NCBI GenBank assembly: GCA_905182335.1
Contig: CAJJBE010000005.1
Location: forward strand, 1 to 64,000
Length of the DNA stretch: 64,000 bases
Reading direction: 5' to 3'
Origin: Flavobacteriales bacterium UBA4466
GTDB taxonomy: Bacteria; Bacteroidota; Bacteroidia; Flavobacteriales_D; Crocinitomicaceae
This document shows, piece after piece, positions 7,014 through 11,936 of this stretch. Position numbers and translations under genes: made by a program. The notes below the pieces were generated by a model. That model did not search any database and was not told where the DNA came from. It was given only the letters and a program-made list of their open reading frames with translations. Numbering within the stretch: the stretch's first letter is position 1; every line of letters begins with the position of its first letter.

Positions 7014-8978
7014 TCATTTTATTTTTTTGTAGAAAAAATTCATTGATAGAATGTGAGGAAAGCTAATGCACGATAAGAATACAAAAAACCAGCTTATAAT
7101 TTCATTATAATTCGATTCGTTTGTAATAAAAAGGAAGTAAAAAATAAAAATAGCTCCTATATTAAATGGGATAGCTTTTGTATACAGTTTTAAATGTGAT
7201 AGTTTAGAACTTTTCTTAATATCAAACCATCCAATAATACTGTGATGAAAAATAAAGTATAAACTAAAAGCATATACCAAGCTTAGTGAAGAGGAAAAGA
7301 AGAGAAATAAACACATTAATAGCCAACTTATTTTTCTTTTGAATAAAGAATAAATAGACACTAAAAATAGGGAGGCATTAGAGGTGTATAATAGACTATT
7401 TGTCTTTATATCTTGATTAATACCTATTATTCTTAAAATATCAATAAATTCTGTTTCGTGACTTGAAAAAAGATATAGAAATATAGTAAGCCCCCAAAAT
7501 AAACTCATCAGTGAAGAATTAATCTTCCAAAATTTCATATCTGTTTGACCAAAGTGCCATGATGAATATAGAATAAAGAGAATTAGTGAAAGTGAAGGAT
7601 AGGATAACCAAAGTAAAAAAATAGGTATCATCAATAATATATAATATATAATAAATGAGAATGATGTTTTTTTTGAAGAACGATAAAACCCAGTGAAATA
7701 GTCTAATGCACCATGAGGTATTCCTACTAATAGTAGCCCTAATGATATAAATAAGAGTTGGGTTTCATTTAGAAAAACTGATTCTTGTGTTGTTGAAGGG
7801 AACAACGTTAAGACTATTAGTACTATTGGTATTATTGATTTTTTTATTTTTCTTGAGATCCAAATAATTAGTGATTTAAAAAAAAGCATAATTTGAAGTC
7901 GAGAAAAAATTTTGAAGTCTTCTTTTATGTTGGTTTGTTCATCTAGGAATTTTAATATTACTTTAGGTTCCGAAGACTTGAATAACCTGGAAAAAACAGA
8001 TTTACCATGTTCTGGCCATTTTTTTAAAATTATTAATAACAATTCATCATATAAAATAAATTTATTTTTTGTTTTAATATAAGTTTGTTTAATTCCACGA
8101 TCACATATGTTTTTTGAATGAGAGTACATTTTTTTAAATCCATAGCCAGTACTTGGCTTTATATTTCCCGCTCTTGTACCTATTTCAATTATTTTCTTTT
8201 TTTTGTTTATTATATTCTCTGAACTCATTGGGATCAAACCAACTTCTTTATCAATAAGTTCATATTTTCCAAAGTTTTTATTTATGTATTTGTCTAGTAA
8301 TACTTCTGAGTTTTTTTTATTAATTATATCATCTCCAAATCTTGTCAATTCAATAAGGCCATAATTTGAATTGTAAGGAAGGATATAAATAAATTGTGTC
8401 CCATGGTTTTGATCAATTCTGAAGTCCATCATTTTGAATGTTTTTGCATCAAATTTTTTAGAATTCAGCTTTACTTTGAAACCAATAAAGGATTGATAGA
8501 TTAATTTTTTATTTTCTGCTAGTTTAGCTATGTTAATTGGCCTACAATCAAATATTTTTTTTGAAAAGTAGGATTTTTCATTAGTTATAACCTCAGAGAG
8601 TCTCTTTTCTTTTATTTCAGTTACTTTATCTTTTATGTAGCTAATGTTTTTTTCTTCTATTATTTTATGAGCAGATTTATATAGATCTATACTGTTAATA
8701 TGAAAATAATTTAGCGGATAAATTGATTCAGGCTTAAAGTCATTAATTTGAATACTATCCCACTGATTTGAAATTATATCTTGATATTCAATATATATAT
8801 CATCTGTTTTTTTTGCCCAGAAGCAAAAAGTTTTATCATTTTCATTTTTTCTGCTCGGGTCTATTATTAATATATTTTTATTTTCAAGGAGGTCTCTCTT
8901 ATTCATTTCTCTTAATAAGACACAAGTACTTGCTCCTAAACCCGTAAAAATAAAATCATATTGATTGATATTATTCAT
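7014..8978 (-). CDS. Fusion of lycopene beta-cyclase (CrtY) and Brp/Blh beta-carotene 15,15'-dioxygenase
   Basis: One uninterrupted 654-residue frame joins two enzymes. Residues 1-375 are a CrtY-type cyclase: the FAD-binding FTGLGAST (11-18), IFDCRP (142-147), YQSFIGFKV (161-169), MDFRIDQNHG (184-193), EVGLIPM (245-251) and IGTRAGNIKPSTGYGF (266-281). Residues 380-654 are a polytopic Brp/Blh domain with the iron-ligand histidines in GIPHGALD (His422), SSWHFGQTD (His475), FIFHHS (His578/579) and SFPHILS (His642). The cyclase turns lycopene into beta-carotene, and Blh cleaves that into two retinals, the opsin chromophore. The gene follows the opsin gene after 69 bases. Both halves keep their motifs, so both should work. 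I usually see the two as separate genes. The sequence is strikingly rich in A/T and in Ile, Asn, Lys and Phe compared with the opsin. Protein call very sure; joint action is inferred. Confidence 0.93.
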   Translation of the reverse strand: MNNINQYDFIFTGLGASTCVLLREMNKRDLLENKNILIIDPSRKNENDKTFCFWAKKTDDIYIEYQDIISNQWDSIQINDFKPESIYPLNYFHINSIDLYKSAHKIIEEKNISYIKDKVTEIKEKRLSEVITNEKSYFSKKIFDCRPINIAKLAENKKLIYQSFIGFKVKLNSKKFDAKTFKMMDFRIDQNHGTQFIYILPYNSNYGLIELTRFGDDIINKKNSEVLLDKYINKNFGKYELIDKEVGLIPMSSENIINKKKKIIEIGTRAGNIKPSTGYGFKKMYSHSKNICDRGIKQTYIKTKNKFILYDELLLIILKKWPEHGKSVFSRLFKSSEPKVILKFLDEQTNIKEDFKIFSRLQIMLFFKSLIIWISRKIKKSIIPIVLIVLTLFPSTTQESVFLNETQLLFISLGLLLVGIPHGALDYFTGFYRSSKKTSFSFIIYYILLMIPIFLLWLSYPSLSLILFILYSSWHFGQTDMKFWKINSSLMSLFWGLTIFLYLFSSHETEFIDILRIIGINQDIKTNSLLYTSNASLFLVSIYSLFKRKISWLLMCLFLFFSSSLSLVYAFSLYFIFHHSIIGWFDIKKSSKLSHLKLYTKAIPFNIGAIFIFYFLFITNESNYNEIISWFFVFLSCISFPHILSMNFFYKKIK

Positions 8979-8996: not shown

Positions 8997-9027
8997 AAAA
9001 AAAAAGCGGCTCATTTGAACCGCTTTT
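8997..9027 (-). terminator. Terminator between the opsin and the crtY-blh gene
   Basis: The hairpin GCGGCTCA/TGAACCGC-like stem (arms within 9006-9023) is followed on the minus strand by nine T (complement of 8997-9005). It starts about 20 bases after the opsin stop codon and ends 18 bases before the crtY-blh start. It should stop most opsin transcripts. The cyclase-cleavage gene would then depend on read-through, because no TAnnTTTG box is visible in the short gap. Confidence 0.85.
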
Positions 9028-9047
9028 CTTTATATAAATAGAGCTTA

Positions 9048-9794
9048 TTAGGCTTCTTTTGTAGAATTAACTGCTAAAGAGTAAACAACAAGGCCAAATC
9101 CTATTTTGTTGATAGCATCACCGATATTATATACAACATTCATGTCGATACCAAGATCTCCCATAAAAGAATACCATTGATCAGGTGCTGTTCCGATCAT
9201 ATATCCTAATGGATAGATTGCCCATCCAATAAGGACGAATTTACACAGCATGTTGTGAGATGCTAAAACTTGACCTCCAGCTTTTTTTGCCAAAGCTTTT
9301 GCCTCTCCAAACATAATTAAGTAAACAATATAGAAGTAAGCAAGACCTGAGAATAATCCCCAGATGGCTGCGCTATCTGAGTAGACAGCTTCACCAAAAT
9401 AACCTGTTACTAACATAACTACAGACGAACCAATCAATGTCCACATTAGTTTTTTAGTTGCTCCTGCTACTTTTAATATTAAGTAAAACTCAACACACAT
9501 TAATGGCACCGTTAAAATCCAATCTACATAACGAAAAAAAGTTGGAGAATCTCCAACACCTGTAGCAGGATCAAATGTACCTGCCCAATAATCTCTCATG
9601 TAGAAATAGTGCACTGCTGCAATGAATGTTATCAGACCTGACACTAAAACTGATGTTCTCCACTTTTTGTCAAATTGATTAAGTGAAAGAAAGAAAAAAG
9701 CTGATGCAGCCATCATTGCCATACATCCAACAAAAAAAGTGAATCCAACATAATCAGTTGTACTCATCTCTGTCATTAATAAAAAGTTGTTCAT
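9048..9794 (-). CDS. Proteorhodopsin, green-absorbing light-driven proton pump
   Basis: A 248-residue, seven-helix microbial rhodopsin. The retinal-binding lysine is Lys230 (DAINKIGFG). Helix C reads RYVDWILTVPLMCVEFYL, giving proton acceptor Asp91, Thr95 and donor Glu102: the DTE pattern of outward proton pumps, as opposed to the NDQ of sodium pumps. His62 in AAVHYFYMRDYW matches the acceptor-partner His75 of the reference protein. The spectral switch (reference position 105) is Met99, the usual flavobacterial residue associated with green light. It has a short N-terminus and no clear cleaved signal peptide. A good promoter lies just upstream and a terminator just downstream, so it is probably a strong single-gene transcript. 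The crtY-blh gene beyond supplies retinal. Very sure. Confidence 0.97.
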   Translation of the reverse strand: MNNFLLMTEMSTTDYVGFTFFVGCMAMMAASAFFFLSLNQFDKKWRTSVLVSGLITFIAAVHYFYMRDYWAGTFDPATGVGDSPTFFRYVDWILTVPLMCVEFYLILKVAGATKKLMWTLIGSSVVMLVTGYFGEAVYSDSAAIWGLFSGLAYFYIVYLIMFGEAKALAKKAGGQVLASHNMLCKFVLIGWAIYPLGYMIGTAPDQWYSFMGDLGIDMNVVYNIGDAINKIGFGLVVYSLAVNSTKEA

Positions 9795-9918: not shown

Positions 9919-9925
9919 TATCAAA

Positions 9926-10290
9926 GGCAAATCAGTTTATCGCTTTGCATGAGAATTGTAAAGAGGAAAGTCTGGGCAGCAAAGAGCACCGTGCTTCCTA
10001 ACGGGAAGGGTTCGTTTACGAATACAGAAAGTGCCGCAGAAAGGAAAACTACCTGCTTCGTAAGAGGTGGGAAAAGGTGAAAAGGTGAGGTAAGAGCTCA
10101 CCGGGTGTATGGTGACATATATCGCTTGGTAAACCTTACGGGCTGAAAAACCATGTAAACCCAGGATTGAGGATTGCTCGTCCGATCTGGGAGGGTAGGT
10201 TGATGGACGCTAATGGTGACGTTAGTGCTAGAGAAATGATAAACGCTGTGTTCATTCACGGTTACAGGACCCGGCTTATGATTTGCCTTT
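9926..10290 (+). ncRNA. rnpB: RNase P RNA (catalytic subunit)
   Basis: Bacterial type A RNase P RNA, which cuts 5' leaders from pre-tRNA. The terminal P1 helix is exact: GGCAAATCA at 9926-9934 pairs with TGATTTGCC at 10279-10287. Conserved blocks occur in order: GAGGAAAGTCTGGGC (9963-9977), ACAGAAAGTGCCGCAGAAA (10024-10042), GGTAAACC, then the 3' block GGTTACAGGACCCGGCTTA just before P1 closes. The P1 3' strand is followed by a T run that, with P1, acts as terminator. The length of about 365 is normal. Exact ends are set by P1 pairing. Confidence 0.95.
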
Positions 10291-10330
10291 TTTTAATTAT
10301 TTTCAATGCTTTTTGTAGGGAAAGTAGTAT

Positions 10331-11299
10331 TTAATTTGATTCTAGCTTTATTTTAAAATGCTCAATAATACTGTAATAGGGGATTAATTCTTCAGCAGAT
10401 GGGCTATACTTTCTGAAATCACTTTGTCTCGAATAGATAGAATAAGTGTTGAGCGCATCATTTAGTTTTACATTGTTTTTTTCGTCTAGACAAAAACCAA
10501 TAAAGTCAAGTGCAATTGTGTAATTGGACGCTTGATTTACAATGGCAATTGATCGCAAGTTGTAAAAAGTACCTTTACTCCGCTCGTTCGGCAATAAAAA
10601 TGACTTGTTCTTATAGAGATGATTAGAGTCTTTATTCAATTTAAAATCACTTAGTGTTGTTAAAACAGGAAGCCTCAAAAACAAGGAGTCATTTAATAGG
10701 CTATCTCCAGGGATTGGTTTTGAAATTGAGTGATCTAAGCAGTCCTTTATCCATTGATTTCCTCTTGCTTTATTAAGCTTTTTTAAGATTGGTGCTAGCA
10801 TTGGAGGGTAATGATTACTCTCTAATTTATTGATGTGATAAAAGCGTGTTAGGTCATTGTATATTTTAACTTTATTATCGCTATTTAGTTCAAAAGCAAT
10901 AATGTACGGGTCTATTCCAAATCCGACATAGTTATATTTCCATGAGGAGTAATGGATAGCTTCTTGTGATTTCTTAACTGTCAGATCAATATGGTGCAAT
11001 ATTTCTCTTTTGTTAAGTTTAGAGACATCATAAAGAGATTTTAGCATAACTAGATCTATACCAGAGTTTGCCGCTTTGTTCCTTATGGTACTAATGATTT
11101 TATCTGAAGTCAATGTATAAATTAAAATGCGTATAGCATTTTTCTTCGCAAATGCACGAAATAATAAAGTGTCTTTAGCTTCAAGGTAGTCCGAAGCAAT
11201 AATTAATTCTCTGGCTTTATAGGGCTGAGCTGTTTCAGTAGAACAGGAAGCTAACATCAACAATGTGATTATTCCAATAAATAGAGGGTTTTGCTTCAT
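10331..11299 (-). CDS. Putative substrate-binding lipoprotein (iron-type periplasmic binding fold)
   Basis: The start at 11299 gives a lipoprotein signal MKQNPLFIGIITLLMLASCS with Cys at residue 18. An upstream extension to 11470 would have no signal and would run into the divergent gene. The 322-residue protein then reads KARELIIASDYLEAKDTLLFRAFAKKN, GIDLVMLKSL and, later, WKYNYVGFGIDPYIIAFEL, which resembles the layout of extracellular ferric-iron/solute-binding proteins (class 1), where a ligand sits between two lobes. No permease or ATPase gene is beside it, so a transport role is only a guess. It would be anchored by lipid in the periplasm or at the outer membrane. Family call moderate; ligand unknown. 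Confidence 0.6.
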   Translation of the reverse strand: MKQNPLFIGIITLLMLASCSTETAQPYKARELIIASDYLEAKDTLLFRAFAKKNAIRILIYTLTSDKIISTIRNKAANSGIDLVMLKSLYDVSKLNKREILHHIDLTVKKSQEAIHYSSWKYNYVGFGIDPYIIAFELNSDNKVKIYNDLTRFYHINKLESNHYPPMLAPILKKLNKARGNQWIKDCLDHSISKPIPGDSLLNDSLFLRLPVLTTLSDFKLNKDSNHLYKNKSFLLPNERSKGTFYNLRSIAIVNQASNYTIALDFIGFCLDEKNNVKLNDALNTYSIYSRQSDFRKYSPSAEELIPYYSIIEHFKIKLESN

Positions 11300-11375
11300 T
11301 TCAACTTTATTTTTTGTAAAGATATATAGTTTGTCGCTAGAATAAATATTATGATGTATTTTTGTGCCAAATAAA

Positions 11376-11936
11376 ATGAAAATGGTAGCAACAAAACAAC
11401 AATTGAAAGTAAAGCAGATTTTAGAAGATATCAAATCGGATGACCCTAAAAAAGTATCAAAAAGTATCAAATCGCTTGAAATTTATGGTGATTCGTCTGT
11501 TATCCTTCCTCTGGCTAATATTTTACTTTCAGGGATAAATAGAAAAAATGAAGAAGAGGTTGTTGAATTGTTGAGTAGCCTTAAAGATACAAGTACCGTA
11601 GTTGAGGTGATGGAGATCATCGGAGATGATAAATTCCTTGCCATTCGGCCAATTATGTTATCAACAGTGTGGAATACGAAAGTTGATTTCAGTGACTACA
11701 TCGATGAATTTGTTGAGATTGCTATCAAAGGAACTTTAATAGAAACGGTTGAGTGCGCAACGATTATTGAGAACTTAGAAGGTCCATTCATGGAGGAAAA
11801 CATGCTTGAATGCCATTTGCATTTAAAGGATTATATCGAGTTAACTGAGCACAAAGATGAGCACAAGGCTTTCTTATTAAGCGAAATCGCTATCAAAATT
11901 AAGGATATAAACGAAGAGTTAGATGCGGAGGATTAA
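11376..11936 (+). CDS. Conserved Bacteroidota protein of unknown function, helical-repeat-like
   Basis: A soluble acidic protein of 186 residues built of predicted helices (VSKSIKSLEIYGDSSVILPLANILLSG, a HEAT-like pattern), without signal peptide or cysteines. I recognise the type as a conserved flavobacterial protein but know no function for it. I chose ATG 11376. A GTG at 11364 would be in frame, but it is part of a TATTTTTG box (11357-11364) that looks like the -7 promoter element, so transcription probably starts near 11371. ATG 11382 is equally possible. Its last 4 bases overlap the end of sufD, tail to tail. Confidence 0.7.
   Translation: MKMVATKQQLKVKQILEDIKSDDPKKVSKSIKSLEIYGDSSVILPLANILLSGINRKNEEEVVELLSSLKDTSTVVEVMEIIGDDKFLAIRPIMLSTVWNTKVDFSDYIDEFVEIAIKGTLIETVECATIIENLEGPFMEENMLECHLHLKDYIELTEHKDEHKAFLLSEIAIKIKDINEELDAED

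Follow-up and report, generated by a model that had tools for sequence, protein, structure and literature searches.

We describe a gene that joins a CrtY-type lycopene cyclase and a Brp/Blh domain in one chain beside a rhodopsin gene, and propose, with a probability of roughly 0.72, that it encodes a two-domain lycopene-to-retinal enzyme that arose once, has moved between families, and forms a private branch beside a second lycopene cyclase, CrtYcd. According to this model, lycopene would be cyclized to beta-carotene by the FAD-type lycopene cyclase half, and the Blh half, embedded in the membrane, would then cleave the beta-carotene and so provide the neighboring rhodopsin with retinal. The fusion would have arisen, most simply once, from an overlapping crtY–blh pair, and would later have passed from one bacterial family to another as a single gene that converts lycopene to retinal. 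The fusion itself, its conservation, the purifying selection on both halves in relatives, the existence of unfused relatives, and the second cyclase are observed; we infer the activities of both halves, the private supply, the horizontal movement, and any channelling.

Results

One open reading frame carries CrtY and Blh domains

The window, by which we mean the whole stretch of 64,000 nucleotides analyzed, contains at 7014..8978 on the minus strand a single uninterrupted ATG open reading frame of 654 aa with two Pfam domains. The CrtY half, of the flavoprotein type of lycopene cyclase (7896..8957, minus strand; residues 8-361), matches PF05834 (Lycopene_cycl) with 131.5 bits against a cut-off of 23.4, and the Blh half (7032..7739, minus strand; residues 414-649), which retains the conserved histidines, matches PF15461 (BCD) with 100.5 bits against a cut-off of 28. 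The chain also exceeds the threshold of the NCBIfam model for Brp/Blh, TIGR03753 (124.9 versus 95.25 bits), and stays below those of the NCBIfam lycopene cyclase models TIGR01790 (88.2 of 209.5 bits) and TIGR01789 (53.3 of 215.2 bits); the CrtY half is thus a member of PF05834 that lies outside both NCBIfam families. A whole-genome search found one BCD match, one Lycopene_cycl match, the latter at the site of the fusion, and one rhodopsin match. A frame of 654 codons uniting CrtY and Blh next to a rhodopsin had been proposed in the first-pass annotation of this DNA, and the ORF call and Pfam domains bear it out.

The junction between the two Pfam matches (7740..7895, minus strand; residues 362-413) includes a hydrophobic segment preceded by the basic stretch RKIKK. 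In our hydropathy script this segment, the first of the fusion, peaks at residues 378-396 right behind the basic residues, an arrangement that would be compatible with a CrtY domain on the cytoplasmic face. Structure prediction for the window protein alone returned a mean pLDDT of 36.9, and phmmer at E 0.01 retrieved no relative among solved structures.

Could the long frame be an artefact of assembly or binning? The first-pass annotation had named an assembly error at the join as one finding that would overturn its reading. A total of 71 loci from as many genomes, however, carry both domains in one ORF, which excludes a chance join, and the window copy sits inside a contig of 343,515 bases. 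We accordingly attach next to no likelihood to an artefact.

Gene neighborhood

The rhodopsin gene (9048..9794, minus strand; 248 aa; PF01036, 128.4 bits against a cut-off of 24.6) lies directly upstream of the fusion on the same strand, 69 bases away, and is the only PF01036 match in the genome. We class it as proteorhodopsin-like from motifs read by eye, with a D-T-E pattern resembling that of proton pumps and a Met at the spectral tuning position. Between the two genes a script identified a terminator-like hairpin with a T tail (9000..9029, minus strand), whose 13-pair stem, with G-T pairs allowed, was matched in 0 of 50 shuffles; the list produced by our consensus scan does not contain this hairpin. 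Applied to the 21 loci with an upstream rhodopsin, the same strict test recovered such hairpins in seven, where mononucleotide shuffles predict 0.3; the remaining 14 loci gave none. Should the hairpin terminate part of the transcripts, the cell would produce more rhodopsin than fusion enzyme.

Of the 71 fused loci, 30 have a rhodopsin gene no more than 400 bases from the fusion, in 21 cases upstream on the same strand; in 39 it is absent from the fetched stretch, some of these stretches ending at contig edges. In the window, the next gene upstream of the rhodopsin gene is a class A RNase P RNA gene (9924-10293), which is encoded on the other strand (plus), and a 379-aa frame with a TTG start (10331-11470, minus strand) has no Pfam match at E 0.01.

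The fusion is common in its order

Species genomes were sampled from the window's genus, family, order, and phylum, with sampling kept within that phylum, and a copy was scored as fused where the open frame at blh (PF15461) spans at least 450 aa. Counted without weighting for relatedness, blh occurs in 9 of 34 genomes of the genus, 19 of 100 of the family, 139 of 299 of the order, and 59 of 395 of the phylum. By frame length, the 139 blh-bearing genomes of the order divide into 69 with fusion-length frames, 62 with separate genes, and 8 with partial copies, and the nine of the genus into four fusion-length frames, four separate genes, and one fragment, the copy of G725 being counted without a check for CrtY. 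In the phylum sample five of 59 blh-bearing genomes are fused, and both domains were confirmed in all five. The expectation of the first-pass annotation that crtY and blh are usually separate therefore holds for the phylum sample but fails in the window's own order.

We fetched the stretches around 137 of the blh places together with three separate crtY genes, and searched their ORFs with profiles of the window's proteins. Both domains were found in 71 ORFs, the window's included, each from its own genome: the order sample, to which the window belongs, contributes 65, the family sample three, and f23, which is a family of another class, the remaining three (loci L181, L182, and L183). Complete ORFs (67 of the 71) measure 497-715 aa, with a median of 664. 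Of the order's 69 fusion-length frames, 65 were fetched (all but those of G628, G685, G674, and G712), and every one of the 65 carries CrtY. A 958-aa frame in G329 gave no CrtY match and was left out of the fusions, and a 457-aa frame in G426 is noted by its length alone. The fused form is present in five families and, within its order, is a regular feature and not a rarity. Protein databases likely already hold two-domain CrtY–Blh entries.

Searches of viral contigs with two short patterns and tblastn revealed no relative, nor did phage records at E 1e-5. Matches to 17 plasmid records all fell short of 80% query coverage, and the 15 listed match the CrtY half only. A contig scan returned one relative with a species name, a separate CrtY from Maribacter stanieri.

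Both halves are conserved, with purifying selection in relatives

The first-pass annotation had also reported motifs of both enzymes, and conservation across the fused ORFs agrees. Residues Y198, P201, E210, T212, G267, T277, and G278 of the CrtY half are identical in 67 of 67 complete fused ORFs, E210 being presumably the catalytic Glu of CrtY; in the motif resembling KPSTGY, P275 is kept in 62, S276 in 61, and Y279 in 65 of the 67. The other 66 complete fused proteins have 78 columns with a conservation of 95% or more; the window copy keeps 77 of these, its sole departure being R306K.

In the Blh half, His422, His475, His579, and His642 are retained throughout 71 fused and 67 separate Blh rows, where departures are gaps only (1, 0, 1, and 3 rows, respectively). 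Two further residues distinguish the fused copies: His507 is present in 71 of 71 fused versus 19 of 67 separate Blh rows, and Trp584 in all 70 fused rows with a letter at that position versus 10 of 67. These marks of the fused Blh may reflect shared ancestry or adaptation. For the 66A03 enzyme, passages of PMC10991881 cite an assignment of His-21, His-78, His-188, and His-192 as iron ligands; judged by spacing, the four-residue interval between the last two is no plain fit to the pattern of the window's histidines.

Among 23 pairs of copies more than 75% identical, 22 gave dN/dS values, ranging from 0.05 to 0.17 for the CrtY half and from 0.05 to 0.26 for the Blh half. Both halves are under purifying selection in these close relatives, a set from which the window copy is absent because it is too divergent.

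A second, unrelated lycopene cyclase accompanies the fusion

The window's genome carries a second, non-homologous lycopene cyclase, CrtYcd (PF18916, in two stretches), at a distant place (contig C3) beyond the reach of the first-pass annotation, and its presence ruled out the idea that the fusion is the cell's sole lycopene cyclase. On the same strand as CrtYcd lie genes for a PF04116 hydroxylase (CrtZ-like), a PF04240 protein (CruF-like), isopentenyl-diphosphate isomerase, a member of the phytoene synthase family, and a desaturase satisfying the NCBIfam CrtID model. Judged from its gene content, this cluster seems to lead to a saproxanthin- or myxol-like monocyclic pigment. The resident CrtYcd, together with the crtI, crtB, crtZ-like, and cruF-like genes, probably serves this membrane pigment. 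A single-chain CrtYcd, cited from Algoriphagus, is described as a monocyclase in passages of PMC2889829.

We examined a panel of 80 hand-picked genomes, unweighted for relatedness: 40 with the fusion, four of a genus (g221) considered below, 27 with a separate blh, and nine without blh. In these four groups, CrtYcd is present in 37 of 40, 4 of 4, 22 of 27, and 5 of 9 genomes; PF04240 (CruF) in 37 of 40, 4 of 4, 20 of 27, and 4 of 9; CrtY (E <= 1e-12) in 40 of 40 (exactly one each), 0 of 4, 9 of 27, and 1 of 9; and rhodopsin in 40 of 40, 4 of 4, 27 of 27, and 1 of 9. Fused genomes thus usually hold two unrelated lycopene cyclases. The two panel genomes of f23 (G302 and G318) gave neither a CrtYcd nor a CruF match, which leaves the fusion as their sole identified cyclase. 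In a genome of the window's own genus (G091), rhodopsin and CrtYcd are present and no blh was found at 99% completeness.

Is a private cyclase needed for retinal? All 18 panel genomes with a separate blh and no CrtY possess CrtYcd, 14 of them also CruF, and all have a rhodopsin, which argues that it is not: CrtYcd alone seems able to supply Blh, and these genomes probably use it if they make retinal. In a tree of 41 CrtYcd rows, fused and other genomes are interleaved, with 8 changes versus 13.2 expected from shuffles; the rows are thus partly clustered, but nothing in the tree sets the CrtYcd of fused genomes apart. The argument that CrtYcd is only a monocyclase, so that the fusion is needed, is weakened both by the 18 CrtY-less genomes and by the lack of a clean split in this tree.

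Probable origin and movement of the fusion

Our CrtY and Blh trees are quick ones that contain long branches and carry SH-aLRT support only. In the CrtY tree, the 71 fused rows of 90 occupy one side of a single branch (SH-aLRT 97); closest to them stand three separate crtY genes, each with a 4-base overlap with its blh. Adjacent separate crtY–blh pairs on one strand occur at 15 loci, with gaps from -64 to +10 and a summed length of 644-726 aa, close to that of the fusion; the genes overlap at 14 of these loci and by exactly 4 bases at five, although the overlaps are measured from the first possible start codon and may be overstated. Locus L201 has the window's order of rhodopsin, crtY, and blh as three genes. 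Given that the fused CrtY halves form one group adjoining separate crtY genes that overlap blh, a single fusion event would be the simplest history.

Such pairs also invite a more modest explanation, to which we grant slightly less than even odds: loss of a stop codon in an overlapping, co-translated crtY–blh pair would simply have ensured that two enzymes are made in equal amounts and transferred together, each still working independently through the membrane pool, with no channelling. The 14 overlapping pairs among 15 of similar summed length agree with it, as do the 18 panel genomes in which a separate Blh coexists with CrtYcd and rhodopsin but no CrtY. Retention of the fused form in five families speaks against it, as do His507 and Trp584 to the extent that they reflect adaptation of the fused Blh and not shared ancestry.

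In the Blh tree, a single clade (96) unites the fused rows with a contig-edge fragment and six separate blh genes of genus g221 (L216-L221); L156, scored as separate in this tree, is a fragment at a contig edge. The g221 stretches yielded no clear crtY trace (best tblastn E 0.03), and the four g221 panel genomes have no CrtY (E <= 1e-12). The six genes may reflect a split of the fusion or loss of its CrtY half, or may never have been joined to one. Holding the fused rows together was not rejected, however (p-AU 0.271), in a test on 102 of 138 rows, 36 having been dropped as fragments, long branches, or near copies.

If the CrtY half were dispensable, as the g221 genes may indicate, one half of the fusion could be degenerate, the CrtY half, for example, persisting as a membrane anchor or scaffold while CrtYcd, present in 37 of 40 fused panel genomes, supplies beta-carotene. 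We regard this as very improbable: the CrtY core residues are the same in all 67 complete fused ORFs, the dN/dS of the CrtY half in relatives stays at 0.05-0.17, no cyclase other than the fused CrtY turned up in the two f23 panel genomes, and the position of the g221 genes within the fused clade is insecure given the p-AU value.

Both halves of the window copy group with copies of another family, f57, and of two genomes of the window's own genus (98 in both trees), and the genome's CrtYcd groups with copies from three genomes of the same genus and one of the same family (99). The pigment cyclase CrtYcd thus looks inherited, and the fusion exchanged, in one direction or the other, between f57 and the window's genus. 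The fusion has probably been transferred horizontally as a one-gene module. In both trees, moreover, fused f23 copies sit among copies from the window's order, which suggests transfer.

Discussion

What would be gained by a second cyclase tethered to Blh? We propose that the fusion probably gives retinal a pathway branch of its own, starting at lycopene: a cyclase on the same chain would give retinal synthesis its own access to lycopene, less open to CruF and CrtZ. In passages of PMC11855829, CrtY of Nonlabens spongiae expressed alone in E. coli yields mostly beta-carotene, and CrtY plus CruF mainly a monocyclic product; competition of this kind is what a private branch would avoid. Direct channelling of beta-carotene from one half to the other, which according to the first-pass annotation would leave little of it free, is a reasonable supposition for such a chain. 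A stronger version, in which the fusion is a mobile, self-sufficient converter that makes retinal in any lycopene producer, whatever its cyclase or CruF, by direct handover of beta-carotene, strikes us as unlikely.

Retinal supply decides whether a rhodopsin functions. A widespread one-chain candidate beside an unrelated cyclase raises the question of whether the carotene pools for pigment and rhodopsin are kept apart, and fused retinal modules may have aided the spread of rhodopsin phototrophy across lineages. If active, the fusion could also serve as a ready-made single gene for producing retinal in laboratory strains.

In the open-access literature, as represented by titles, the beginnings of abstracts, and selected passages and with subscription papers set aside, no CrtY–Blh fusion is described. 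The closest known counterparts are the separate crtY and blh genes of rhodopsin bacteria, which belong to the same enzyme families, follow the same order of crtY then blh, often lie beside rhodopsin, and include overlapping pairs, but encode two proteins where the window gene encodes one chain. The pigment cluster of the flavobacterium Nonlabens spongiae, as presented in passages of PMC11855829, resembles that of the window's genome in combining CruF and CrtZ with a lycopene cyclase for myxol synthesis; its cyclase is of the CrtY type, whereas the window's genome has CrtYcd in this place. Natural fusions of carotenoid enzymes have precedents, including, in the parts of the respective papers available, the phytoene synthase–cyclase fusions of fungi (PMC2889829), CrtIBY of thraustochytrids (PMC10016063), and CrtIB in rhodopsin operons of Verrucomicrobiota (PMC10284914), but in none of these is CrtY joined to Blh. 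The CrtI–CrtB–CrtYc/d–Blh protein of Thecamonas trahens, as described in passages of PMC10016063, is likewise a natural cyclase fusion with a C-terminal Blh; unlike the window's protein, it comes from a eukaryote, comprises four domains, and employs a cyclase of the CrtYc/d type and not CrtY.
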